A DNA stretch of 64,000 bases, taken from assembly GCF_027923765.1 (NCBI RefSeq), contig NZ_AP026709.1:677501-741500 (forward strand). The letters are read 5' to 3'. The notes under the pieces were generated by a model, which was not told where the DNA came from, did not search any database, and saw nothing but the letters and a program-made list of their open reading frames with translations. Shown here one piece after another: positions 22,362 to 63,825 of this stretch. Numbering within the stretch: the stretch's first letter is position 1; the number at the start of each line of letters is the position of its first letter. Source of the DNA: Pseudodesulfovibrio nedwellii (GTDB lineage: Bacteria > Desulfobacterota > Desulfovibrionia > Desulfovibrionales > Desulfovibrionaceae). The translations under genes and the position numbers were made by a program.

Positions 22362-22454
22362 GGAGAGGTAGCGAAGTCCGGCCGTAACGCGCTCGACTCG
22401 AAATCGAGTTATGGGTCAAACCATACGTGGGTTCGAATCCCACCCTCTCCGCCA
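22362..22454 (+). tRNA. tRNA-Ser (anticodon CGA)
   Basis: Acceptor stem GGAGAGG pairs with CCTCTCC, followed by G and an encoded CCA. The anticodon arm is CTCGA-CTCGAAA-TCGAG, giving anticodon CGA (reads UCG). The long variable arm (TATGG...CCATA) is typical of class II serine tRNA, and the T arm is GTGGG-TTCGAAT-CCCAC. The 3' end is a likely prophage attachment site, because phage genes begin right after. Confidence 0.95.
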
Positions 22455-22600: not shown

Positions 22601-25600
22601 TTAATACGCTTTCCTCTGCTCAAGAATCCGAAGTGCCTCTCTCGGACTTACTCCGCTCCCCTTCGATCTCGACTTGATCCGGCTGGTCATATCGCGGGTG
22701 GTAATTACCATCCAAGGCTTTTTGTCTTCCATGGCCTCTTTATTCCACCCTTTCCACTCGGTCAGGATACTACGGGCTTTTTTCTCGTCCCCTGCACGCA
22801 GAGCCCCAACATAGTTGTTTGCAAACTCGGTGGCCTTGTTGCTTCTGACCTGTTGAGAAACCTTCCGGCCTCGGTACTGATCCCATGACTTGCGGCTAGA
22901 GATAGGCTGGAACCCTGCCATCTTTCCTATCGCTTCCGCCTCAGTCAATTTGCGCGGACCACGTTTCCCCGGCTCATTGATAGGCTTGCCGGAAATAGAA
23001 CGTTGACCGTCTTTCCAGAGACGATAACCGGCCATGCCGTTTCGAACGATTGTAGGCGCGGCCTCTTCAAATGCTCGCCACTCATTGCCAGCATTGAGAG
23101 CCTTTACTATCCTTGAAGGTTTGCGGATGAACATGTCGTAAGGGATGCCGAAGATATCGCCAAGATTGTCAGCGACGCTTTCTTCTATCGTGGCACCAGG
23201 TTCAACCCTTGAAAGGATCGGAGTTTCAAGCCCGACGGAACCACCAAGGGAGAACCCGGCCCCGGCTGGCAGTCCATACGAAACCATATCGCGAAGGATG
23301 TCGCCTTCTGGCAGTTTCTTCCGGATCTCTTCCGTCCAATCATCATCGTCACCGGTTGCCCATTGGAACAGGTGCATCAGCGTCGCGTAGAAAGGTAGAG
23401 CCGTAAATCCACCGATGGCCATGGTTCCCATCATCGACTTGGCAAATGCTTTCTTTCCTTCTGCGCCTTGCTCCGTCAGCATCCAATTCCAGATAGAAAG
23501 GATATTGTGTGAGAAGGTGCGGAAAGTATAGGCAGGGTTTGCACCACGGCCTATGGTCGAGTTCCTGAGAGGCTGCGGGAGGTTGGTCTTCCCGTAGACG
23601 AAATGAGAGTCTCTCACCACATCTTCGGCGTATGCCTTGGCTTTCTCATAGGGCAATCTTACTCCAGGCTTGGCGCCGAGCTCTGCCAGAACCGCTTCAT
23701 TTGTGATCTTGCCGTCTCGGGCTGCACGGTATGCGGCCAGAGCCAGAGAAGCCCGGTTGAAACGCTCGGCAATGGCCATAGGCATTCCTGCCCATTTCAA
23801 AACCTTATTACCAATTGCCGCGACCGAAACACCTTGAACACGCCCGCGAATCTCATTGAGGAAACCTTCGGTAATAACGTCCTCGCGATACAAGTCGTCG
23901 AGAAGACGCGATTCGTCCTTGGGCAAGGTCTTTACTTTTCCGCCCGTAGCTCTGCCGGTCAACTGCTCGGTGAGTGTTGCCGCGGCAGCCTTCCAGTATT
24001 TGAAACCGCCACTTTTTACGTCCATGCTGAATCGAGGAATACCCACAATAACATTCTGCGTCAGGTTGAGCGCGGCAGTCTTGAGATTGAAACCCAAGTA
24101 CCAGAGGAAAGCCATGGCCTTGATATTACCGACAGCGCGGTCAATCTTGTCCGCATTTCTGAGCATATTCTGGACGTAATTGGTGGCGTAGACATATTCT
24201 TTCGGATGGTGCTTTGCATCAACTTGTCCAAGCAGTGAAGTAAAATCCCGGCTTGCCTGAATCTTGGTCAGCCAACCGGAAAGACCGGCCTTGTAGTCAT
24301 AGATGATGCCTTGAATATCTTCCTTCTCATGTCCGGGAACACCCTTGCGTCCGATGGTTGCAGCCGACCAACCGCGTGATTTCATGGTGTCGGACACGGC
24401 TTCGGCCAACTTGCCTTTGATTTCCTTGGCCATCTCCTTGTTTTCTATCTTGTCAGCCGCCGCCACCACAATTTGCTCCATGGCATTGGTGTCGATACCA
24501 AATTCATAGAGTTCATCGGGCAGACGTTCGTTCTTCCCTGTAGACCAGTCTACATTGTCGGGATAATCGGCTTTCAATTCAGCCATTTTCTTTTCAGCCT
24601 TGCGACCGGCGAGTCCCTTTGTCGAAGCGTCAAAGTGTTCCCGGTGAACGGCGCTGCGTTTGTTCTTTGTCCAATGCTTACGAGCCGTAGCTTCATTGGC
24701 AAACTCTTTGGAAACGATGTCGTCAGTTGCATTGAAAACCGCCCACTTACCTTCATCGGTCTGACCGACGTAGTTGTCTCCAACAGCCTGAACGTAATAC
24801 CCACCGTACCGTTTGTGCGGGAAGTAGTTATGAACATGATTGATATTCGAACGGAACGCCTTGATTGTGTCCTCGTCAATCTCAGCCATTTCACGCATGG
24901 CATCATAGGCCCGCAGGAAATCGCGGTCGAGGGATTCACGGAGGGCACTCATTGCCTTTTTTACCTTCTCAGAAACAGGCTGTTTATCCAACCAACGCTC
25001 AAACATCCGATAATAGCGAGGATTCATTTCAAGGACGATCCGCCCGTTTTCATAGGTGTCGCGCCCTTTGGCATCCTGAACCGGAATAAACTTGTCGAGA
25101 TTCATACCCGGCAGTTTCTCGCCGTCTATCTCCCAAATCATATCACGAAGCGCGGCATGATCTTCTTTGCTCAGGTCAGTAAAGAAATCTTCAACCTCTT
25201 CCAACGACTCTTTGAGAACTGCCGCTCTTTCGTCCATACGGGTCAACTGACGACGGTAGATAGCATCAAAGGCCGGAAACCGTTTGGCAATCCAGTGAGG
25301 CAAGCTCGCGACTTCCTGCAATACGGAAAGGTCACCGGTATTGATCCGGTTATGAAGACCGGACTTGCCTTTCTTTGCTGCATCCTTGGCAATCTGGCTA
25401 GGCTTGGCTGTCATTGCCCTTACAGCGGCATTGCCACCGCTCGGCATGGTGCCGCCATTCATGCGTTGGAGTTGCTGAATAAGTGCCGACTGACGATAGG
25501 TGCCGCGTGAGAATTTAACTTTTTTATTTCCGATTCGAACTCGTATTTTTGCATTCTTCAATACAGGCTCACCGTCTGATCCTGTGCCTATCTTTTCGCC

Positions 25601-28600
25601 ATCGACAACGTACAAAGGACGTTCCCCAGCCTTCAACTCAAGGAATGTTCCCATTTCTTGATTGTATTTAGGGATAGCAATAGCTTCTCCTGATTTGGGT
25701 AAATATTTACCATGGTAAACGGACACTCCCTCCTCAGAAATATTATCTCTGTAATTAAAGCTTATTCCACCTTCGGGGATATCGCCATATCGAACGAACA
25801 CATCCTCTGCTTCCCCCCATTTTTTGTCATGAGATTCCTTAGCCAATTGATCTGCAATTGCCGTAGCCTTATGGATAATTTTAGCTTCCGGTACCCCAGA
25901 ACCAAGCGACTTGCTTTCTTTTTCTATTTCAAATCCATTTTTTTTTGCCCACATCAATGCTTGATTGTAGGCATTTGCAACAGATTCCTTGTATTCTTCA
26001 TGTGTGCCTTCAAAAAAAATGACAGATATCCCCTTGCTGTCCTTTCCCTTTCTTAAGCCTTGCACCTTAAATTGGGGAGATTCTTTTAGCCCCATGGCTT
26101 TAACATAATAGCCACTTGTGACCTGAGAAATTTCACGGTCTGAGGGGAAAAGTACACGACCAAATCCAGACGGACTTATATTGCCATCAGGAGCATGGAA
26201 TCCCAACGAATCAACTAGAACTGAATCTTTAACCATAGATACTTCTTGTCCATTTATAGCAGGAAAATCAAATTTATTTTTTTTAGAAAATCTAGTTTTG
26301 TCGTTACCACTCTCTTTAGAGAACGCAACCGACGGTTCGCGCTGACCAAACTTGATACCACCTCTGGGACCGTCAGGCCCGTGAATGGTCCATTGAACAG
26401 CATCATCAACAATCAATGCTATTTCAGCGTCAGTCAGATTCATATTCAAGCCAAGGTCGCGCAGCCACTCGGTGACCGCTTTAACGAACCTACGCCATAT
26501 TTTTTTTGCCTTATTCGACAGGGGTTTGTTGAGTCGCACCTTTTCAGCAATACCAGCAAGATACTCTTCTGCTGCAAGGATCTGATCTTGTCGGTTATTC
26601 AAATCGAAGTCATACAGGCTGGCAGTATCACGGAAAGCCCTTTTACCGCCTGCAGCAACAAACACTCGGTTCATCATGCGGACATATTCACGCGGGCCAA
26701 ACAAGCCTTTAAGTCCCTGATGCAACCCTTGTTCGTGCATCCAGAGTGCTACCGCCCGGCGATTAGAACCGATGTTGCCAGCAACCAAATAAACTCGGTC
26801 GCCATCGTTCGCGGCTTCAAGCACGCCGCCGCCCTGCTCATTGAATTCATCCTGAATATGCTTCGGCAAATCTTCGACAGATTGCACAACCTCAAGAGGC
26901 AATGCTTTCTCTGCCGACTTCTGAAGCTTATTAAGCGCGCCCTCAACCACTTTGCGAGACATTGATCTAGTCGGAACGTCCTTACGGGAAAACATAGTGA
27001 TGTTCTGCGATGTCGGTTTTTTCTTCCCTTTCGCCTCGTCGACCAGTTCCTCTGTCGCTTCTTTGAAAGCCTGACTTCGTTTTTCAAGCTCGTTGGCTTT
27101 GGCCTGCTCTTTGATATTTTCAAGTCCAATACCCGGCAAATCGCGGCCATCATCGTGTGATCCTTCGGCCTGTTTGGGCATGGAGTCGGCATATTGGTGA
27201 AGCTGTTCGGCAATATGCTTGGCGGGAGTTTTGTCCATAATCCGCATCCAATCTTCTGCGACGGGATCCCCTTTGCCCTTGGCCGGAGCCATGGACATGT
27301 ATTTCGTCAGATAGTCATGGACGGTCTTGATTGCAGAATTCGTGCGCTTGGCCTGTTCAGCCTCGATGAACATATCCAAAACATCCTGCAACAGGCCGGA
27401 CATGTCATAGTTCTTATTGCGGCTCAAACGAGCAAGGGCCGGAAGTATACGATCCATCTTGTTGACAATTCGCTTCGGCGCACGTTCAAGGGTATTGGGG
27501 TTGGCAAATACCAGTCCACGGAAGGCATTGATTACGGTAGCCTTGCCGTCGGGGTTCAACACGTTGTAATGATCGTCCCAATACTCGTTCCGCTTGGTTG
27601 TATCGAGTACTCCATTTTCCTCAAGCATTTTCACAATACGTCGGGAAGCATTCTGGCTCAGATATTCAGAGAAGGTCATGTCACCGTATCTGGACAAGTC
27701 GAGCGCCAGTTCCTTCAACGTATCCTCAGAAATCAAATTGCCGAGTGAAACGCTCTGCGCCATCTTGCCCATACCACCAGTTACATTCTGGTTATAGATA
27801 CGGCTCTTCTTCAAAAGTTCTTTGGGACTTGCCCCTTCCATATCCACAACGCGCACAAGAACAGGTTGCTCGAAACCGTCAACGTCTTCGGCAGTCAAAC
27901 CAAAGATCGAAGCACTGTCTTTCAACTCGGAGACATACTTTTCAGCATGTTGGGGGTAGGATTCGTAAACGACCTGAAGAGTCATTGTTCGGCCATTGCC
28001 GCCAAGGACAAGACCTTTTTCGGTGATGATGGGTGCGCCATTGCTGGCATCGGGGTTGTTGGTAACAAGGTACGCAGGATTGAACCGGGCAGCGTTGCCC
28101 TTTACCTTGGCTTGCTCTTCCTTGTCGCTATGGTAGACGCGCTCCTGAACCTTGGGCGGATAGTCCTCCCTCGGCTTGAAGCTATCGGTGGGATCGTGAG
28201 AAGGCACAACGTCAGACAACTCACGGATTTCGTATCGTGCGTCGTCTTCCTTTGTTTCCTCACCTACTCGGTACGGAATTCCTGTGCGATTTCCTCTTGC
28301 GTCTTTTTCCGATACTTTCCCATATTCCCGGCTTGTTCGTGACGCTTCATTAGATTCGTGAACGCTTGAGGATCGTCGCCCTCGATCACGTCCTGAACCA
28401 TCGTTTCCCGCTCTTCCTTCGGAAACGGTATCGCTTTCTTCTCTTCCATTGGACTGCTCCTTAATATCGACTGCCTCTGATTTTACATCAGATTCAGACT
28501 GTGCGCTACCGGAAACATCAGGCTTTTCGATCACGACCATTCGGGTTGCTACACCGGTCGGACGTTCAGAACTTTTGAAAGAACCTTCAGGCAGCTGTTC

Positions 28601-31600
28601 CGACCAACCGTGTTCCATCATCGCGTCGTAATCACGATTCGGCACGGCCTTGAGAAGTTTGTCTTTGATAGTTGCCTGCGCGTCCTGATCCATGACCGGG
28701 CCTTCGTCCACAACCTCGCGCCAGCCCCATTGCTTACCTTCATCGTCAAGCTGAACCTCTTCGACGTTCATGCCCTTCTTAACTTTCTGAGCAACAACCA
28801 GGCGGATACCCTTCTTGCTGTAGGGCTTGCCGCTGGACATGACGTTTACGCCATCAGGCGCGGATTGTTCCGGGTTCTTTTGATCCAGAGAGATTTTTCC
28901 AACATGCCCTTTGGTTCCCACCGGCTTGGTGGTGTTGCCCTTAGTCCATGCCTTGAACTCGTCTGCGCTCATCTCGACAAGATTGCCGAGCCCGGTCCAG
29001 CCTGCTTCGTAATTCGAAAGGTAGCCTTCCTGGGCTTCCTGCGCGTTGTCAAAGCCCATCAAAATCTTGTGCTCGTCGAAGGAACCGTCTTCGTTCTTTT
29101 GATCCACCACAAAGACGGGCTTGGAACTCATGTCTTCAGACTCAACACCGTCTTTCAGGAAAACGTCCAGATGGTCCTTGTCTTTACCCACGGTTCCCTT
29201 GATATAGCCGTAATGGTGCTGCATCTGCACAGACCAAGGCTTTCCATCCTTGTCCGTACCGGAACGCTCGGAGCCTGCCGGATTCTCAATGGAGATATCA
29301 AGGCCTATGGCTTTAACATGGCCGAGCTTGTAATTTCCTTTTTCAATCTGAGCCTCAGTCGGCTGCGGGGTGTCATTCTGCTCGGAGGTCGCGGCTTCGT
29401 TCGCCTTCGTTTCAACGGACTGCCTACGAGCCTGTTCCGTTATAACGGCACGAAGGTCGGTCTGGTAGGCGACCCCTGCACCCTCTGCGACGCCTAATGC
29501 GGCTCGATCTTCATCGGCTTCCATCTTGCCTCTAAGCTCTTCAAGAGCTTCGTCGGATAGCTCTCCAACCTTTTGCCCTTGAATCTCATAGCCAGCGGAG
29601 GCAAGAGTATAATCAAAAGAATAGCGTTCTTTCTTCCCTTTCAAGGAATAACCCGAATCGCCGTTGCCATCTTCTTTGTTAATAAGCTCGACGTGGCCAT
29701 CTTCCAGCACGACACGAAGAGTATCGTCGCTTTCTGCCTCGACTACGCCCTGGTGCTCCCCACCGTTAAGGTCATAGATGGTAATAGCATTGATCGGGGA
29801 AGTTGCAGCCTCGTTTGCTTTATTGATAATAAGGGGCTGCGCTTGCGCCGGCGCAAGGTCCATAGCCGTTCGCACAGCAGGCACTCCACCATGAACTATT
29901 TCAAAATCAGGCCGGTAATTCTCGCCCTCGTTGGAAACCATTTCAAAATCTTGGGAAGAACGACTCGGAATTGGTTCGGACTGAGCCCAGCCCATTGCAA
30001 TAGGCCGGGAGCCTTCCGGCAAAGCTGCCGGGGGCTGACCTTGTGGCATGGCCATAGCAGTACGGCCTTGTTCCTGCGGAATGGGACCATATCCGGTCTG
30101 TTGTGTCGGTTGAGGGATGATAACAGGACCACCAGGAGGAAGGGCCATTGCTCCGCCAACCGGGAGTTCGTTCCGTGCTGCCGGGGGCATTTGCGGCGTG
30201 ACGTGAGGATCAGCCAGACCAAAGGCTTCATCAGCCGTCGGAAAGGGGGAACCCGCGTTCAAGGCATCTTGTAAACCCTTGTCGAAATAATCACTAACCT
30301 CTTTCGCAGAATATCCAAGAGCATTTTCATATACAGGCTGTTCGTTCTGTGCTGCCGGGATGTCTTGGTTTGGCTGCGTTGACGTGACTTGCGGTGTCCC
30401 CATATTCATGAGGTCTACGGTCTCAGGAAAAGGAGTAGCAGTACGTTCTCTTACTTCCTTCTCAGTATATCCACTGTCATCATAGACAGTCGGGAATTTG
30501 GAAGGATCGAGGCGGGGGCCATATCCTTCATCGTCGAAAACTCCGCCCATTGACTTCACCGCTTGAGGCAGGCCACCGGGAACAGGACGAGCATCAATAT
30601 ACGAAGGCTGTTCTTCTTCGCCTTTCATTAGATCGTAAGCCTTTGCTCCAGCCTTGTGAACGCCCATCTGCAAGACGGAACCGACAGCGACCGGGCCTGC
30701 CTGGGTGTCGATAAACTCGCCCAAGGTAGGATCGTCTTTCCTGAGGTCCATATCCTTTCGGATACCTTCCTGCCCAAAATATGTGACGGCTTCTGTGACT
30801 TCTTCCTCTGCCACTTCTGCGGTCATTTTTGCGCCGATACGGGCAAGAGCCCGCTTCGAAATAGCTTCGGTTATTCCCGCAAAGCCTGGGATTTTCCCGA
30901 AGATTTTACCACCAACACCCTTGAACATGCCTGCGGTCAATGCCTGGGAAATTGCTTCTGGCCCTGCTTCCCATGCGCCCATCTCCGACGCTTCATCGTC
31001 GATGTCTTTTTTAATCGCTTCCCATTCCGGCGCGGTCAGGTTGACATTCCCCTTTTTGGCAACATCGAGCATCTCTTCAAGGAACTGGTCTTTTGCCATG
31101 CGGTAGAACGCTGGACCGGTGCTCGCAAAGGCTCCGACCATGGAACCGACAGTACCACCAGTAATTGCGCCAGCCGTAGTACCAGCAACCGGGACCGCTG
31201 ACCCCGCTGCCCCACCGATCATTGCGCCTACCTTCGCGCCTGCCAAGCCACCGGAAGCACCAACGACCGCACTGGTAGCAACGCTCGCCGGGCCTTGGGC
31301 AAGAGATTCGTTCCACTTGTCGCCAAGAATGACCTGTTTGGACGGGATACGGGAAGCGCGATCCTTTTTTTGCTCCGCAATCCACTCGTCTTCCCAAGAA
31401 TCGTTTTTCAAATCGACGTCACCACCGCGAGAAATACGGGCAATGTCTTCGGGGAATTGGTCGCGAACGGCATTAAGAATACCTGTTCCAAGTTCCCTAG
31501 CCCCACCGAAAAAACCGCTATTGTCCGGCAAGTCGTCAACCGTAATCGGAGTATTGGGATTCACCTGATTATACTGGTCAACAGCAGCTTGGAGCTTTTG

Positions 31601-31708
31601 ATCGTCAGTAGAGAGTTCGCCTTGCGGTGTGTCATTATGAAAGAACCCCTCGTTCGCAAGCTCTTCTTGCGCCATTTGGAACAGGGTATCGCGGTCGTAA
31701 AAGCCCAT
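22601..31708 (-). CDS. Giant phage polyvalent / internal virion protein (3,035 residues)
   Basis: One unbroken frame of 3,035 residues at the promoter-distal end of the late operon. In order: a glycine/alanine-rich hydrophobic stretch (about 140-206) fit to enter a membrane; low-complexity Q/P region; an inorganic-pyrophosphatase-like polyvalent domain (about 790-925; SIENPAGSERSGTDKDG, DKDHLDVFL); charged linker (1075-1150); a DdrB-like ParB domain (about 1150-1405; VLGGNGRTMTLQ); a zincin-like segment (HEQGLH, His1658); an AT-rich insert (about 1806-2062); and a long C-terminal region like polyvalent-associated domains, with a membrane segment near 2,756. Such proteins are carried in the virion and injected with DNA to protect it and counter host defences. 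Domain names are from memory and need profile searches. Confidence 0.85.
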   Translation of the reverse strand: MGFYDRDTLFQMAQEELANEGFFHNDTPQGELSTDDQKLQAAVDQYNQVNPNTPITVDDLPDNSGFFGGARELGTGILNAVRDQFPEDIARISRGGDVDLKNDSWEDEWIAEQKKDRASRIPSKQVILGDKWNESLAQGPASVATSAVVGASGGLAGAKVGAMIGGAAGSAVPVAGTTAGAITGGTVGSMVGAFASTGPAFYRMAKDQFLEEMLDVAKKGNVNLTAPEWEAIKKDIDDEASEMGAWEAGPEAISQALTAGMFKGVGGKIFGKIPGFAGITEAISKRALARIGAKMTAEVAEEEVTEAVTYFGQEGIRKDMDLRKDDPTLGEFIDTQAGPVAVGSVLQMGVHKAGAKAYDLMKGEEEQPSYIDARPVPGGLPQAVKSMGGVFDDEGYGPRLDPSKFPTVYDDSGYTEKEVRERTATPFPETVDLMNMGTPQVTSTQPNQDIPAAQNEQPVYENALGYSAKEVSDYFDKGLQDALNAGSPFPTADEAFGLADPHVTPQMPPAARNELPVGGAMALPPGGPVIIPQPTQQTGYGPIPQEQGRTAMAMPQGQPPAALPEGSRPIAMGWAQSEPIPSRSSQDFEMVSNEGENYRPDFEIVHGGVPAVRTAMDLAPAQAQPLIINKANEAATSPINAITIYDLNGGEHQGVVEAESDDTLRVVLEDGHVELINKEDGNGDSGYSLKGKKERYSFDYTLASAGYEIQGQKVGELSDEALEELRGKMEADEDRAALGVAEGAGVAYQTDLRAVITEQARRQSVETKANEAATSEQNDTPQPTEAQIEKGNYKLGHVKAIGLDISIENPAGSERSGTDKDGKPWSVQMQHHYGYIKGTVGKDKDHLDVFLKDGVESEDMSSKPVFVVDQKNEDGSFDEHKILMGFDNAQEAQEGYLSNYEAGWTGLGNLVEMSADEFKAWTKGNTTKPVGTKGHVGKISLDQKNPEQSAPDGVNVMSSGKPYSKKGIRLVVAQKVKKGMNVEEVQLDDEGKQWGWREVVDEGPVMDQDAQATIKDKLLKAVPNRDYDAMMEHGWSEQLPEGSFKSSERPTGVATRMVVIEKPDVSGSAQSESDVKSEAVDIKEQSNGREESDTVSEGRAGNDGSGRDRGRRSSSVHESNEASRTSREYGKVSEKDARGNRTGIPYRVGEETKEDDARYEIRELSDVVPSHDPTDSFKPREDYPPKVQERVYHSDKEEQAKVKGNAARFNPAYLVTNNPDASNGAPIITEKGLVLGGNGRTMTLQVVYESYPQHAEKYVSELKDSASIFGLTAEDVDGFEQPVLVRVVDMEGASPKELLKKSRIYNQNVTGGMGKMAQSVSLGNLISEDTLKELALDLSRYGDMTFSEYLSQNASRRIVKMLEENGVLDTTKRNEYWDDHYNVLNPDGKATVINAFRGLVFANPNTLERAPKRIVNKMDRILPALARLSRNKNYDMSGLLQDVLDMFIEAEQAKRTNSAIKTVHDYLTKYMSMAPAKGKGDPVAEDWMRIMDKTPAKHIAEQLHQYADSMPKQAEGSHDDGRDLPGIGLENIKEQAKANELEKRSQAFKEATEELVDEAKGKKKPTSQNITMFSRKDVPTRSMSRKVVEGALNKLQKSAEKALPLEVVQSVEDLPKHIQDEFNEQGGGVLEAANDGDRVYLVAGNIGSNRRAVALWMHEQGLHQGLKGLFGPREYVRMMNRVFVAAGGKRAFRDTASLYDFDLNNRQDQILAAEEYLAGIAEKVRLNKPLSNKAKKIWRRFVKAVTEWLRDLGLNMNLTDAEIALIVDDAVQWTIHGPDGPRGGIKFGQREPSVAFSKESGNDKTRFSKKNKFDFPAINGQEVSMVKDSVLVDSLGFHAPDGNISPSGFGRVLFPSDREISQVTSGYYVKAMGLKESPQFKVQGLRKGKDSKGISVIFFEGTHEEYKESVANAYNQALMWAKKNGFEIEKESKSLGSGVPEAKIIHKATAIADQLAKESHDKKWGEAEDVFVRYGDIPEGGISFNYRDNISEEGVSVYHGKYLPKSGEAIAIPKYNQEMGTFLELKAGERPLYVVDGEKIGTGSDGEPVLKNAKIRVRIGNKKVKFSRGTYRQSALIQQLQRMNGGTMPSGGNAAVRAMTAKPSQIAKDAAKKGKSGLHNRINTGDLSVLQEVASLPHWIAKRFPAFDAIYRRQLTRMDERAAVLKESLEEVEDFFTDLSKEDHAALRDMIWEIDGEKLPGMNLDKFIPVQDAKGRDTYENGRIVLEMNPRYYRMFERWLDKQPVSEKVKKAMSALRESLDRDFLRAYDAMREMAEIDEDTIKAFRSNINHVHNYFPHKRYGGYYVQAVGDNYVGQTDEGKWAVFNATDDIVSKEFANEATARKHWTKNKRSAVHREHFDASTKGLAGRKAEKKMAELKADYPDNVDWSTGKNERLPDELYEFGIDTNAMEQIVVAAADKIENKEMAKEIKGKLAEAVSDTMKSRGWSAATIGRKGVPGHEKEDIQGIIYDYKAGLSGWLTKIQASRDFTSLLGQVDAKHHPKEYVYATNYVQNMLRNADKIDRAVGNIKAMAFLWYLGFNLKTAALNLTQNVIVGIPRFSMDVKSGGFKYWKAAAATLTEQLTGRATGGKVKTLPKDESRLLDDLYREDVITEGFLNEIRGRVQGVSVAAIGNKVLKWAGMPMAIAERFNRASLALAAYRAARDGKITNEAVLAELGAKPGVRLPYEKAKAYAEDVVRDSHFVYGKTNLPQPLRNSTIGRGANPAYTFRTFSHNILSIWNWMLTEQGAEGKKAFAKSMMGTMAIGGFTALPFYATLMHLFQWATGDDDDWTEEIRKKLPEGDILRDMVSYGLPAGAGFSLGGSVGLETPILSRVEPGATIEESVADNLGDIFGIPYDMFIRKPSRIVKALNAGNEWRAFEEAAPTIVRNGMAGYRLWKDGQRSISGKPINEPGKRGPRKLTEAEAIGKMAGFQPISSRKSWDQYRGRKVSQQVRSNKATEFANNYVGALRAGDEKKARSILTEWKGWNKEAMEDKKPWMVITTRDMTSRIKSRSKGSGVSPREALRILEQRKAY

Positions 31709-46163: not shown

Positions 46164-46403
46164 TTAAGCGGTGTAACCGCCCGGTTTCTGTGCTTTGAAC
46201 CCATCGGGAGCCATGTCTTCCAAGGCTTCCTTGAGTTCGGTAATCCGGCCTTGCAGCCGGAACATTTCTTTGGTGTCGAGCTCGGTTTCCAACTGCTCGC
46301 GCTTCTGATTGATTCGGTCCTCGATGTAGGAACGAACGAGCTTGACTGCGGGGGTGTCCCAACTGTTTTTCAAAGCTCTAAGGTCGTTGTCAGAAAAGAT
46401 CAT
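46164..46403 (-). CDS. Small phage protein between portal and scaffold
   Basis: A 79-residue, all-helical, charged protein (SYIEDRINQKREQLETELD) with no recognised family. It overlaps the portal end by four bases (ATGA). A head-assembly helper role is possible from position. Confidence 0.65.
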   Translation of the reverse strand: MIFSDNDLRALKNSWDTPAVKLVRSYIEDRINQKREQLETELDTKEMFRLQGRITELKEALEDMAPDGFKAQKPGGYTA

Positions 46404-57907: not shown

Positions 57908-58360
57908 TTACCCGGCCTTACGAATACTCTTGACTGGTGGGCAGTCTCGCTCTCTGGCTCTGTAAACTATGTCGTCCATTTCCTTGGCAACCCGGTTACG
58001 GAGTGTGATCAGTTCTGTGTAGTGCATCCCGCTATCTGCCGCACTAGTGAACGCTGAAGCGACGTGAAGCCCTTGCAAACACTCCTCTGTCATATCTCTC
58101 CCGTCTGGGTGCGCCTCTTCGTGTACGAGCCGATACCCAAACCGTGCCGCCAGCAATTCAAGCGGCTGCACGCCGTCACAAGCGCGCATAATCGGAATCA
58201 GATCCATAACGCCGAACTTCGCAAGAGGATCGTCTTGGTTTAGTTCACGCATCAAGGTCGTGTATGGTTTGCCTATATCGGCGGCGATCTGCTTGCGCGG
58301 TTTGCCGGACTCGTCGATCATTGACTCAATGACGTCGAGCATGTTTTCTGAGGCTGTCAT
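57908..58360 (-). CDS. CII/CP76-like phage regulator
   Basis: A 150-residue protein like phage regulatory protein CII (CP76): MLDVIESMIDESGKPRKQIAADIGKPYTTLMREL with a helix-turn-helix, then VQPLELLAARFGYRLV. CII-like proteins activate lysogeny or replication promoters. It lies next to the replication genes, leftward, 331 bases from the Cro-like gene. Confidence 0.72.
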   Translation of the reverse strand: MTASENMLDVIESMIDESGKPRKQIAADIGKPYTTLMRELNQDDPLAKFGVMDLIPIMRACDGVQPLELLAARFGYRLVHEEAHPDGRDMTEECLQGLHVASAFTSAADSGMHYTELITLRNRVAKEMDDIVYRARERDCPPVKSIRKAG

Positions 58361-58691: not shown

Positions 58692-58916
58692 TCAAGCGGC
58701 CTCGTCTTTGGTGCCAGGATGCTTGTCTCCGTAGATGAATGGCTCAAGAGCCAGTTGAACGTCAGCCGTTCTAACTCCTGATTTTCGTCCTGGCACTTTC
58801 CCCGCAACTCGGCGAATAGTCATGAGCGACAAGCCAGAAAATGAGGCTAACTGTTGTTCATTCCATCCAGTTTCGTTCAAAAACTTGGTAAGTTCTTTCT
58901 GAGTAATCATAGTCAA
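58692..58916 (-). CDS. Cro-like helix-turn-helix repressor
   Basis: A 74-residue protein with a helix-turn-helix (NEQQLASFSGLSLMTIRRVAGK). It is divergent from the S24 repressor and separated from it by the operator pair, the usual place for a Cro. Its start lies inside the operator/promoter region. Confidence 0.78.
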   Translation of the reverse strand: MTMITQKELTKFLNETGWNEQQLASFSGLSLMTIRRVAGKVPGRKSGVRTADVQLALEPFIYGDKHPGTKDEAA

Positions 58917-58921
58917 AGTTT

Positions 58922-58933
58922 AACCGAGTGGTT
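58922..58933. promoter_or_regulatory. Repressor operator-like site O1
   Basis: AACCGAGTGGTT, a near-palindrome matching the consensus AACCRARTGGTT, between the divergent repressor genes. It is 32 bases from O2. Confidence 0.62.
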
Positions 58934-58953
58934 ATTTTTCGTCAATCAAGTTT

Positions 58954-58965
58954 AAACGAATGGTT
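58954..58965. promoter_or_regulatory. Repressor operator-like site O2
   Basis: AAACGAATGGTT, second copy of the operator-like element, in direct orientation to O1; both share flanking GTTTAA and TTA. Confidence 0.6.
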
Positions 58966-59002
58966 ACAGACGGCCAGAAAAGTCTTTGATATGAGGATGA
59001 TT

Positions 59003-59743
59003 ATGGGATTTCATGACGACTTAACAAACGGCCTCAAAGGTCTTGTCGGCAAGGATAGGCGCTTTAAAAACAACGCAAGACTTGCCGAGGCGTGTGACGT
59101 AGCCCCTATTCAAATCAGCCGAATCGTTAAAAAAGAACGTGAACAATATATAAAAGCTCTTGCCAAAATTATTGATGGAGTAGGAGCTCGACTAATTTTT
59201 GACGATGCAAATGAGCACGACACGGCCCGCGAGGTCTGCTTTGTTGACGCTCAAGCCGTTAATGCTCCTGATGCGATAAAAATTGCTGAAGAAGATTATA
59301 TTGCGGTGCCTTTGGCCGAAGAGCCGGTTGCCGCTGGCCCCGGTCTTATTCCACAAGATTCAATACGTGGATGGGTGTTGGTTTGGAGACATCATAAGTC
59401 TTTACGGTTCACTACCAATCTTGTCGCTGTCCAGATCGGGAAGAATGAACGTTCAATGCTTCCGACATTTTGTCCTGAAGACATCCTCTTGATAGATCGA
59501 TCAAACAAGAATCCAGAGCAGCCTGGCAAGACATGGCTGGTATGCGACCCTGATGGTGGATGCGCTATCAAACGCGTTAGCACAAAACCTGTCGATGGCG
59601 ATATTGAATTGATTTTTTATTCAGACAACACACAAGATTTTCCGCCTACAAGTTACCGCTTAAAACGCGATTTTGATGGTAACATCACCCGCGCAATCGC
59701 TGGCCGTGTCGTATGGGCTTGGTCTGATGTGAGGGATAAATGA
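59003..59743 (+). CDS. S24/LexA-type prophage repressor (CI-like)
   Basis: A 246-residue repressor. Residues 1-55 form a DNA-binding helix-turn-helix (RLAEACDVAPIQISRIVKKE). The C-terminal half is an S24 self-cleaving domain: cleavage site Ala111-Gly112 (PVAAGPG), nucleophile Ser151 (SMLP) and general base Lys190 (AIKR). It should hold the lysogenic state and be inactivated by RecA-stimulated cleavage. ATG 59,003 follows AGGATG; the longer frame from 58,928 runs through the operator. Its stop overlaps the next start by ATGA. Confidence 0.86.
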   Translation: MGFHDDLTNGLKGLVGKDRRFKNNARLAEACDVAPIQISRIVKKEREQYIKALAKIIDGVGARLIFDDANEHDTAREVCFVDAQAVNAPDAIKIAEEDYIAVPLAEEPVAAGPGLIPQDSIRGWVLVWRHHKSLRFTTNLVAVQIGKNERSMLPTFCPEDILLIDRSNKNPEQPGKTWLVCDPDGGCAIKRVSTKPVDGDIELIFYSDNTQDFPPTSYRLKRDFDGNITRAIAGRVVWAWSDVRDK

Positions 59744-61080
59744 AGAAGCCAAGTCCTTCCGCACAATTTTTATCGGATAAACGATCCTACAAATACTATC
59801 TTCGAAGCCGGAAACATAAATATCCAGACCGTAACGATAGTGACCACCTGCACAGTGGGAGGAACTACTTGGAATCCACATACAATTCAACACCATTAAA
59901 ACTGCTGGACGAAGCTGCTGAAGAAGGGAACTATGCTTCCTTCTTATCCCCAAAAAACAAAGACACCTATACATCAGCAAAGGTGCTCATCCCCAAAATA
60001 TTTTCATTAATCGATGCTCCTAAAGATGCCGTGCGAACCTTTCTTACTCTTGCTCAAAGGGTAAAGAATTGGAAAGTTAGAAGAATTCATTATGACTATA
60101 AAAAATGTACCTCTTATGATTTGGCGGCACAATGTGTTCTGGACTACATAGTTGAAGAATATCAACGGGAAATATCATCAAAAAGAAATCACTTCACCAC
60201 GACGGTTGTTCCCCCGCAAGATGAAGGGCATTTGAGGCTACTTAAAACCGTCGGAATATTATCTAGGACGGACGAGGATAAGCAAACAGTCCATCGCAGA
60301 ATTGAAATGTTCAAACAAAGTAGTTCTCAAATAGAGGAACAAATTTCAATTGGATCGGCAAGTTATGTCGAAAGGGTTGCAAAGGCTTTTGTTAAACATA
60401 TTCAGAATTGCCTCAACAGAGCAGACAGAACGTTAACAGAATCTGCAGAAGGACTAATCTCAGAATACGTTGGTGAGGTGTTGGACAACATCAAAGAACA
60501 TACGAAAATCAACAAGTGGAGAATTACAGGGTTCTTGGACTGGAGACAGGACATCCCTATGTGCGAAGTTGCTATTTTCAATTTTGGCAGATCTTTTGCA
60601 GACTCATTTATTGAAGCTCCCAAGACGTCAAAAAGTTATGATGATCTTTCTGATTTTCTCAATAAGTACGAACAAATGAATGGTAAAATTAGAGATCGGG
60701 ACGAAAGATGTCTTATCACCCTGTTCGCGTTGCAGGAAGGCATCAGCTCAAAGAATACAGACGACTCATCCAAACGGGGAATGGGAACGGTTGATTTGAT
60801 TGAGCTTTTTCAGAGAATGCACGAGGAGTGCCGCATTGGTCAGTCGAATTCTGATGCAAAAATGACTCTACTGTCCGGAGATGTAAACATTTTATTTGAT
60901 GGAACATATCAAATGAAAAAAATGCCGCCTGCGGGTAAAATTATATCCTTTAACAAATCAGGCCACCTTCTTGACAAGTTTAATCCGAAATTTATAACAT
61001 GTATTGAACCTTTATATTTTCCAGGGACAGTGGTGAGCATCCGCTTCCCGCTTGAAAGAGCTTGGACGGAGAAAATATGA
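59740..61080 (+). CDS. GHKL-family ATPase (histidine-kinase-like fold), first gene of a three-gene operon
   Basis: A 446-residue soluble protein. The C-terminal half has the GHKL motifs: N-box SEYVGEVLDNIKEHTKI (Asn250, Glu253), G1-like VAIFNFGRSF (277-286; Asn replaces the usual Asp), LFALQEGISSK, G2-like SKRGMGTVDLIELF (about 344-357) and a last beta strand. There is no phosphoacceptor-His or receiver domain, so it is more like anti-sigma (SpoIIAB/RsbW) or MutL-type ATPases than a sensor kinase. Residues 1-200 are unrecognised. ATGA overlap with the repressor stop suggests co-expression in the lysogen. AT-rich compared with its phage neighbours. Confidence 0.82.
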   Translation: MKKPSPSAQFLSDKRSYKYYLRSRKHKYPDRNDSDHLHSGRNYLESTYNSTPLKLLDEAAEEGNYASFLSPKNKDTYTSAKVLIPKIFSLIDAPKDAVRTFLTLAQRVKNWKVRRIHYDYKKCTSYDLAAQCVLDYIVEEYQREISSKRNHFTTTVVPPQDEGHLRLLKTVGILSRTDEDKQTVHRRIEMFKQSSSQIEEQISIGSASYVERVAKAFVKHIQNCLNRADRTLTESAEGLISEYVGEVLDNIKEHTKINKWRITGFLDWRQDIPMCEVAIFNFGRSFADSFIEAPKTSKSYDDLSDFLNKYEQMNGKIRDRDERCLITLFALQEGISSKNTDDSSKRGMGTVDLIELFQRMHEECRIGQSNSDAKMTLLSGDVNILFDGTYQMKKMPPAGKIISFNKSGHLLDKFNPKFITCIEPLYFPGTVVSIRFPLERAWTEKI

Positions 61081-61406
61081 ACCAGAAAATTAATCAGACC
61101 ATAGATTTTGGAAATTTTGGATCGAGTCTCCTTACGACGAGAGAACGAGGGGAATTAGCTGGGAAAAAGTTGAGAATCGATGAAATGAGCTGCCAAGGCA
61201 ATCCGATCAAAATTATTGTTCCCGACTATATCACGTCGATCACCTCGTCTTTTATCCTCGGCATGTTTGGAAACATAATTCAACGTTGCGGATCAGAAGA
61301 GGCTTTTCTGAAAAAATTCCAATTCCAAATGAAAGATCGCCACTGGATCAACCTTAATCGCAGCATTGAGTACGCCCTGAGGCCAACTAATTGTCGTCCC
61401 TACTAA
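61077..61406 (+). CDS. STAS-like protein (DUF4325 type), second gene
   Basis: A 109-residue protein. DYITSITSSFILGMFGNII (residues 50-68, SSF at 57-59) and the preceding beta strands match STAS-like DUF4325 proteins. STAS domains are often anti-anti-sigma factors; pairing with a GHKL ATPase recalls the SpoIIAA/SpoIIAB partner switch. ATG 61,077 follows GGAG and overlaps the ATPase stop (ATGA). Confidence 0.72.
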   Translation: MNQKINQTIDFGNFGSSLLTTRERGELAGKKLRIDEMSCQGNPIKIIVPDYITSITSSFILGMFGNIIQRCGSEEAFLKKFQFQMKDRHWINLNRSIEYALRPTNCRPY

Positions 61407-62443
61407 TTACCACCACTGCTTTTTGGAAGAGTGTCCGAGCTCTCGATACAGCCGCAATCGCACTAATAATTTCGTGTGGCACACTTAGTTGGCGTCTAAT
61501 TGAAACTTTTTTTAAGCGAACTGATCGTATTTCTGACCGTCAGGTCCAAGATATCAAGGAAGTCTGGATTGACGCTTCACTCGTGCCTGTTTGTATCACC
61601 CCCCTTCGTAAATTTGTAACAGCCCTTACAAAAAAGTTTCGCGAGGTGTGTGGAGATTTGGCTCTGGAACAAAATCAAGATAAAATTGATGAAATCACTA
61701 CAAATTTTGATTCTTTTTTCAAAGAAAAAAGAGACCGGATAGAATCAAAACTCAGAATCATCGCTCCAATTAGCGGGAATCATTACAACCAAATTCAGGA
61801 TATAATTAACGACTTTGAAGACGCCCACTGGGAACACTTTAGCATGGTGACTAACAATGAGAAGGGAACTGGCCTTCAGAGTGCAGCCTTTGGATATGAG
61901 ACGACCCTGTACACAGGTTTGAACAAAACACTTCGGACGCTTTATCTGCTCAACAATAGCGATGATCTGTCCAATTTTTTCGGATTTGAAATCACTTTCA
62001 AGGAAAAAATATTTCGAAATGGGAAAAGAGCCTTTAAGGGCGTTATAAACGGGACTCACAACTTGGCCCAAAAAAAGAATGCCATTTGTTATACTCCCTT
62101 CACTAATAACAACGCTATACCGCAATTGGATGAACCAGCTTATATGTATAAATTAAAATTCTTACGGGCGTTACGGGAAAGGGCTTGTTGCGACATAACA
62201 TTCCCCACCGAAGAATTAAAGCGTGTGCATAAAGAAGATGGAAAAATTTGGGCCTGCAAGATGTTTATTCTCATGACGATATGTCATGTTATTTTATGGT
62301 TGTCCTCCCCTATTTGGTTTCCTCTTTGCGCTACACGTAAATGGTGGAAATTGACCAACGAATTGCCTAACATGGAAACGGATATGGAATGGAAAGCAGC
62401 CATGATAATCCAACGTCCTGAATTATTTTCACGTATCTATTAG
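61391..62443 (+). CDS. Two-pass membrane protein, third gene
   Basis: A 350-residue protein: N-terminal membrane helix (about residues 19-40, TAAIALIISCGTLSWRLIET), a long charged, helical middle, and a C-terminal membrane helix (about 290-313, MFILMTICHVILWLSSPIWF) followed by a basic tail. TTG 61,391 overlaps the STAS gene by 16 bases; no ATG is close. No family recognised. The design of soluble switch plus membrane partner suggests an effector. Confidence 0.65.
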   Translation: MSSLLITTTAFWKSVRALDTAAIALIISCGTLSWRLIETFFKRTDRISDRQVQDIKEVWIDASLVPVCITPLRKFVTALTKKFREVCGDLALEQNQDKIDEITTNFDSFFKEKRDRIESKLRIIAPISGNHYNQIQDIINDFEDAHWEHFSMVTNNEKGTGLQSAAFGYETTLYTGLNKTLRTLYLLNNSDDLSNFFGFEITFKEKIFRNGKRAFKGVINGTHNLAQKKNAICYTPFTNNNAIPQLDEPAYMYKLKFLRALRERACCDITFPTEELKRVHKEDGKIWACKMFILMTICHVILWLSSPIWFPLCATRKWWKLTNELPNMETDMEWKAAMIIQRPELFSRIY

Positions 62444-62470
62444 CCCCCTCGCCCCGCGGGGGTTTTCTTT
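62444..62470 (+). terminator. Terminator of the repressor-GHKL-STAS-membrane operon
   Basis: CCCCC pairs with GGGGG across a GC-rich loop (with an inner CCCCGCGGGG), then TTTTCTTTT. It begins right after the membrane gene's stop. Confidence 0.7.
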
Positions 62471-63770: not shown

Positions 63771-63782
63771 TACCATTTGGTT
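63771..63782. promoter_or_regulatory. Repressor operator-like site O3
   Basis: TACCATTTGGTT, third copy of the operator-like element, 34 bases from O4. Confidence 0.58.
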
Positions 63783-63791
63783 ATTTTAATG

Positions 63792-63825
63792 TTGACATAA
63801 TTTTAACCAAATGGTTATTCTTTCT
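63792..63825 (+). promoter_or_regulatory. Rightward promoter with repressor operator-like site O4 (63,805-63,816)
   Basis: TTGACA at 63,792-63,797 and a -10-like TTATTC at about 63,815-63,820 with AACCAAATGGTT between them. A repressor bound there would block this promoter, which reads toward the right end of the window and beyond. Confidence 0.55.

Follow-up and report, generated by a model that had tools for sequence, protein, structure and literature searches.

A prophage operon coupling a phage repressor to a STAS-GHKL kinase-like protein, a STAS-like protein and a membrane protein, with relatives among VapKSC-like systems

The 64,000-nucleotide stretch of the Pseudodesulfovibrio nedwellii genome analyzed here (contig NZ_AP026709.1, positions 677,501 to 741,500; hereafter, the window) contains, within a prophage, an operon that encodes a CI-type phage repressor followed by three proteins denoted A, B and C (Table 1). 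The coordinates bear out the four rightward genes and the coupling of the trio to the repressor that were described in an earlier note on this DNA: the repressor gene and gene A overlap by ATGA, as do genes A and B, and gene B shares 16 bp with gene C, which starts with TTG. Each of the four genes has at its start, as judged by eye, a purine-rich stretch of Shine-Dalgarno type. The operon is closed by a terminator-like hairpin directly after C; the match by itself is weak (seven such sites against 5.9 expected in the 5.4 kb scanned), so that it is the place of the hairpin that counts. The AT-rich makeup reported previously is equally evident, with a guanine-plus-cytosine content of 46.3% for the repressor gene and 40.1, 41.8 and 40.3% for A, B and C, respectively, against 49.3% for the window.

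Table 1. Features of the repressor operon and the adjacent control regions (window coordinates).
Feature	Position	Strand	Evidence
CII-like regulator (Phage_CP76)	57908..58360	-	Pfam 5.7e-8, above cut-off
Divergent small helix-turn-helix (HTH)-like gene, Cro position	58692..58916	-	HTH_8 E 0.0012, below cut-off; position
Operator-like palindrome AACCGAGTGGTTA before repressor gene	58921..58934	.	DNA pattern search
Second operator-like site, one mismatch	58954..58966	+	DNA pattern search
CI-type phage repressor, first operon gene	59003..59743	+	phrog_4 1.8e-13; phrog_6201 2.9e-8
Gene A: basic N-terminal extension, STAS-like domain, SpoIIAB-like GHKL kinase domain	59740..61080	+	
STAS-like domain of A, residues 73-177	59956..60270	+	
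GHKL domain of A, residues 187-437; N-box E246/N250/H254, G-box G347/G349	60298..61050	+	
Gene B: STAS-like, DUF4325-related	61077..61406	+	phrog_37359 3.1e-9
Gene C: membrane protein; residues 22-159 conserved family part, remainder an extension unseen in aligned relatives	61391..62443	+	
Terminator-like hairpin closing the operon	62446..62462	+	pattern scan; position directly after C
Two operator-like sites, right control region	63771-63783 and 63804-63817	.	DNA pattern search

Genes A, B and C form a unit that is retained far outside this prophage. Relatives of A were found in IMG/VR (6 and 10 loci, 10 of them distinct, with four repeats and with L040, L041 and L042 looking like one sequence), in GTDB genomes (25 loci, 21 of which were kept: L023, L027 and L029 end at or just after A, and L016 and L017 carry the same genes) and on plasmids (seven matching records, five of them examined, the other two being Pantoea plasmids whose coordinates match those of one of the five). 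By the earlier note, its proposal would be refuted if homologues of the three genes never occurred together or if the third were missing or broken in related loci; B and C follow A in all 36 distinct informative loci besides the window, so neither holds and the membrane protein belongs to the unit, as proposed. The exceptions are a visibly short C in L009 (121 amino acids), a 73-amino-acid frame in place of A in L032 and an A cut by the contig start in L021. By record title, the carriers include Burkholderiales, Vibrio, Methylococcales, a Spirosoma plasmid (Bacteroidota) and bins of Ruminiclostridium and Rhodothermaceae; the trio is spread over several phyla and resides on viruses, plasmids and chromosomes, so that the label of a prophage system turned out to be too narrow. 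Within the window's own phylum, A was detected in one of the 395 sampled genomes, namely, its own. The pairwise distances of A, B and C correlate (27 of the 32 loci), and C is the fastest-changing gene in all five pairs compared. The ratios of nonsynonymous to synonymous substitution rates for A, B and C are 0.029, 0.086 and 0.125 in L010/L013 and 0.104, 0.119 and 0.344 in L009/L021, to which the short C belongs. Synonymous rates could be computed for all three genes in these two pairs, whereas each of the remaining three shows saturation in one gene or more.

The protein A consists of 446 amino acids and begins with the basic extension, the first 45 residues having a median net charge of +11. 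The predicted model and the fold match show STAS and GHKL domains like those of SpoIIAB/SpoIIAA and RsbW/RsbV/RsbS, and the N-box and G-box motifs noted before are confirmed by the invariance of all five residues in the 88 sequences of alignment A5. No HTH match was obtained for A in the Pfam and PHROGs searches, but the model shows residues 1-72 as helices, predicted with varying confidence. Neither A nor C was matched above chance by any Pfam, PADLOC or NCBIfam model.

B is a protein of 109 amino acids that ends about 50 residues past its serine motif, in which S58 is invariant in all 32 family members and the adjacent position 57 is occupied by Ser in 26, Thr in 3 and Pro in 3. The assignment of B as STAS-like stands, but its direct match to DUF4325 (PF14213) is below the threshold (E 0.055; 13.6 bits compared with the gathering score of 23), and five of the 32 members match at E<=0.01. 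The DUF4325 relationship runs through intermediates, since the B profile matches four STAS-like proteins of a sister group of trios introduced below (95.4%, E 1.9e-8, hhalign), among which those of L065 and L069 are over the PF14213 cut-off and that of L082 is annotated as DUF4325. The invariant Ser of the sister family is set opposite S58 by hhalign. At the C-terminus of B, no HTH match was found in Pfam or PHROGs, and there is no room for a winged HTH after the STAS-like domain.

The C proteins have a mean column identity of 13% over 32 sequences and are still recognizable as a family: a profile of 29 other C proteins finds residues 22-159 of the window protein with E 1.5e-14 (best of 300 shuffles, 9.4e-6), and leave-one-out profiles recover all 32 at 6.2e-8 or better. 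Their membrane helix passes the hydropathy threshold of 1.6 in 29 of the 31 relatives (L025 and L036 fail) and is followed by a near-invariant Trp (30 of 32) and a helical region. Two membrane helices had been claimed for the window protein; the first (approximately residues 15-36) is weak, with hydropathy 1.44, but occupies the conserved position of the family, whereas the second (residues 286-304) belongs to a C-terminal extension absent in all 31 aligned relatives. This extension covers residues 191-350 (window 61961-62443). The model of C is all-helical with a membrane helix, in which a long helix (6-92) is followed by three others as far as residue 187, at fair to good confidence, and is poorly predicted at residues 190-350. 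Among the 32 C proteins, Pfam yields no fitting family (four families are touched, by at most five members, best E 0.00096) and no PIN domain match at E 0.01.

The GHKL and STAS-like pair was previously put forward as a partner switch within a candidate undescribed prophage system. The pair itself is supported and no description turned up in the libraries searched, but a described relative exists, the VapKSC toxin-antitoxin system (PMC13373217, EMBO J 2026), together with CapK/CapS. According to that paper, VapS inhibits VapC and a VapS phosphomimic loses binding, and the vapKSC operon protects against one phage by approximately 2 log, the protection being abolished by changes in VapC, in the VapS serine or in the proposed single-stranded DNA site of VapK. 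That study could not demonstrate that VapK itself phosphorylates its partner and deduced this from CapK/CapS. Single-stranded DNA as the signal is the authors' inference; F54 of VapK, in the proposed site, is needed for protection. No other paper describing the trio was found by title or abstract, in a literature collection without most subscription journals and preprints.

In 297 genomes of the window's phylum, a DUF4325 search produced 34 matches. Loci with STAS-GHKL, DUF4325 and PIN-like genes were labelled VapKSC-like by gene order and motif (those used are L051, L053, L054, L055 and L064), and their kinases match A across both domains in a profile comparison (97.1%, E 5.7e-11, 271 columns), compared with 0.4% for the control comparison with C. 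Profile comparisons further reveal a sister group that bridges the two, represented by L065, L069, a Helicobacter prophage (L082) and Marinobacter phage AS1 (L083), in which a DUF4325-type protein stands between a shorter kinase and a small membrane protein. Relatives of the sister DUF4325 protein occur at 176 places in IMG/VR; among the best 80 of these (L084-L163), a kinase-profile match lies directly upstream in 73, four are cut there and three have none, and when shorter frames are allowed, the kinase is in the locus for 75 (70 distinct sequences). A repressor-profile match directly precedes 25 of these 75 kinases, eight of these matches being seeds of the repressor profile. On the contig L102, the order is repressor, one small gene and sister trio, and the L102 repressor is 45% identical to that of the window over 251 columns, which indicates the same slot with another cassette behind it. 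Francisella phage KIRK has in its published table (PMC7924643) the order CI, a 293-amino-acid protein, DUF4325 and a transmembrane protein, the last three being genes 46-48. The sister-trio genes of AS1 and KIRK are annotated as hypothetical save for the DUF4325 name, and the available part of PMC7924643 gives no function for them.

As separate observations by eye, L067:558-2580 carries STAS-GHKL-like and DUF4325 genes followed by MNT nucleotidyltransferase-like and HEPN-like genes, possibly a third effector type; in L056, L057, L058, L059, L068 and L071, DUF4325 is part of proteins of 339-353 amino acids with a winged-helix-like start, possible one-protein switches; and in L074-L078 and L080, DUF4325 proteins of 195 amino acids adjoin galT-type-like chromosomal genes, a separate use of the domain.

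Like VapKSC, the window trio is a three-gene operon of a STAS+GHKL kinase, a STAS protein and a third protein; in the VapKSC-like loci used, the STAS partner is DUF4325. It differs in that the third gene encodes a membrane protein rather than a PIN nuclease, in the greater length of A (446 amino acids, compared with 288-328 for the kinases of those loci), in its basic extension and in the coupling to a phage repressor. CapK, too, is a kinase with STAS and GHKL domains and has a STAS protein as its target, but it carries an N-terminal HTH, and CapS has a C-terminal winged HTH and represses transcription (PMC13373217), whereas the Pfam and PHROGs searches gave no HTH match for A or B. The SpoIIAB/SpoIIAA and RsbW/RsbV/RsbS systems share the two folds and a predicted serine phospho-switch; in A, however, STAS and GHKL are fused, the third gene encodes a membrane protein, and the operon (repressor-A-B-C, terminator-like hairpin) contains no sigma factor. 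The sister trios have the same gene order, often behind a repressor (AS1 genes 41-39; KIRK genes 46-48), but their kinases have 276-371 amino acids in four aligned examples, and the C profile does not pick up their membrane proteins (134-201 amino acids; best E 0.38).

Because the homology of the first gene, the anatomy of the second and the position of the third match VapKSC, C is most likely the effector, acting here at the membrane. Our preferred interpretation, to which we give a little less than an even chance, sees in the operon a phospho-released effector module that the prophage carries behind its repressor as an accessory of lysogeny and that stops the cell before an invading phage multiplies. 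The block of other phages and the membrane damage, both suggested in the earlier note, are inferences. At rest, C would sit in the inner membrane with its cytosolic helical bundle kept silent by B; upon a stress or infection signal, A would phosphorylate B at Ser58 or the neighbouring Ser57; phosphorylated B, given the proposed B-C binding, would release C; and the freed C would act on the membrane, presumably by damaging it, and halt the cell.

Several results weigh against this interpretation. Pfam ATPase families match none of the 88 A sequences at E 0.01; PADLOC 2023 gives no match for A or C and a weak one for B (Hp3, E 0.017); and the fold search with C produced nothing stronger than helical bundles commonly give. 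The direct profile match of B to the STAS proteins of VapKSC-like loci is weak (9%, E 0.0036) and sets VapS Ser48 opposite Ser57, a position that 3 of the 32 members fill with Pro. Residue 125 of A, aligned to the VapK F54/CapK W68 aromatic, is non-aromatic (F54 was mapped onto L051 F44 by our own alignment, without the published VapK sequence), and because the aromatic is not kept in this alignment, the single-stranded DNA signal may not apply to A.

In the neighbourhood of the trio, defence genes lie within two genes of it in at least 6 of 31 loci, a count without a random-gene control: among the 113 genes so placed, ten of them checked singly, are a type IIG gene (L005), a C5-type methyltransferase (L019), a type I methyltransferase (L020), a PLD helicase (L021), BrxL and PglZ (L025), and type IIG and HKD/Snf2 genes (L028), with none at L003 and L010 by single checks. 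Among the 113, four are matched by a single PHROGs integrase family.

Partner switches frequently act downstream of a sensor, and small membrane proteins that have a cytosolic domain can serve as receptors. C could, then, be a membrane sensor, with B and A as relay and the output elsewhere, e.g. the repressor, such that membrane or envelope stress sets prophage induction. The repressor in the same operon and the repressor matches before sister kinases (25 of 75, best 80 of 176) favor this polarity; but no repressor is evident directly before A on the five plasmids and in the chromosomal neighbour lists (annotation, by eye; no HTH search), so that the trio has no constant output gene next to it at those sites, C changes fastest, and in VapKSC the output is the product of the third gene (PMC13373217). 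We consider the reversal unlikely. An addiction module with toxin C, antitoxin B and kinase A as trigger, stabilizing a mobile element without a dedicated anti-phage role, would fit the presence of the trio inside prophages and on small plasmids, beside partition or replication genes. Yet the trio is also chromosomal, beside restriction or BREX genes, and addiction does not need a kinase that inactivates the antitoxin; we regard this option as rather improbable.

The lysogenic position and the membrane protein recall lambda cI-rexA-rexB, where RexA and RexB stand behind cI and one partner is a membrane protein, and C could by this analogy be a constitutive superinfection-exclusion protein, like known exclusion factors of prophages, whose level or assembly A and B tune. 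The comparison with RexAB is one of position, and RexA is reported to be a DNA-binding protein. The kinase residues are strictly kept in all 88 A sequences and the serine of B in all 32, which argues for a phospho-switch; with the presence on plasmids as a further counterpoint, exclusion appears quite improbable. Given that GHKL folds include chaperones and topoisomerases, A might be an ATP-dependent scaffold instead of a kinase. In favor of this, a single HATPase match was seen among 11 A proteins with Pfam tables viewed singly (P0059, E 0.018, below the cut-off). A has the SpoIIAB-like GHKL fold with the invariant N-box Glu and Asn; the scaffold reading we consider very improbable.

A broader and more tentative proposal, somewhat doubtful on balance, starts from the phospho-released effector module: temperate phages would widely carry, directly behind the repressor, interchangeable kinase-STAS-membrane cassettes in which the kinase frees a membrane toxin from a STAS antitoxin, as a standard lysogenic defence, with sensor and effector swapped from one system to another (a PIN nuclease or membrane proteins, and perhaps HEPN/MNT). 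The related repressors of the window and L102, with two different cassettes behind them, fit this proposal. VapKSC is the one kinase-triggered toxin-antitoxin system that we found described; the window trio would add to this kind a membrane effector and a place in the temperate-phage immunity region. If the mechanism holds, protein phosphorylation can arm membrane toxins, and a common unnamed gene class beside phage repressors gains a testable function.

The prophage around the operon is real: the window includes genes for a terminase, a head-tail adaptor, a major head protein and an internal virion protein, and an integrase lies past its right end (G000 754016-755080). The repressor, earlier called S24, is a phage repressor by its phrog_4 match, with S24 itself found in Pfam only below the cut-off (E 0.0053). 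The operator pattern was derived by eye from these very sites, so that its counts are post hoc: it matches 7 times, two of the sites being counted once per strand, where 1.77 matches would be expected, and 1 of 100 shuffles reached 7; with one mismatch allowed, one further site appears in the 64 kb, at 46174. The right arm carries a DNA methyltransferase gene (phrog_116, 4e-77) and a 331-amino-acid PAPS-reductase-type-like gene, the latter by eye (L050:7001-9151), as well as a predicted tRNA-Ser (tga) that overlaps a predicted open frame (L050:488-578, window 63988 onward). Elsewhere in the window, one open frame of 3035 amino acids occupies 22601-31708 on the - strand and adjoins a tRNA-Ser (cga) at 22362-22454.
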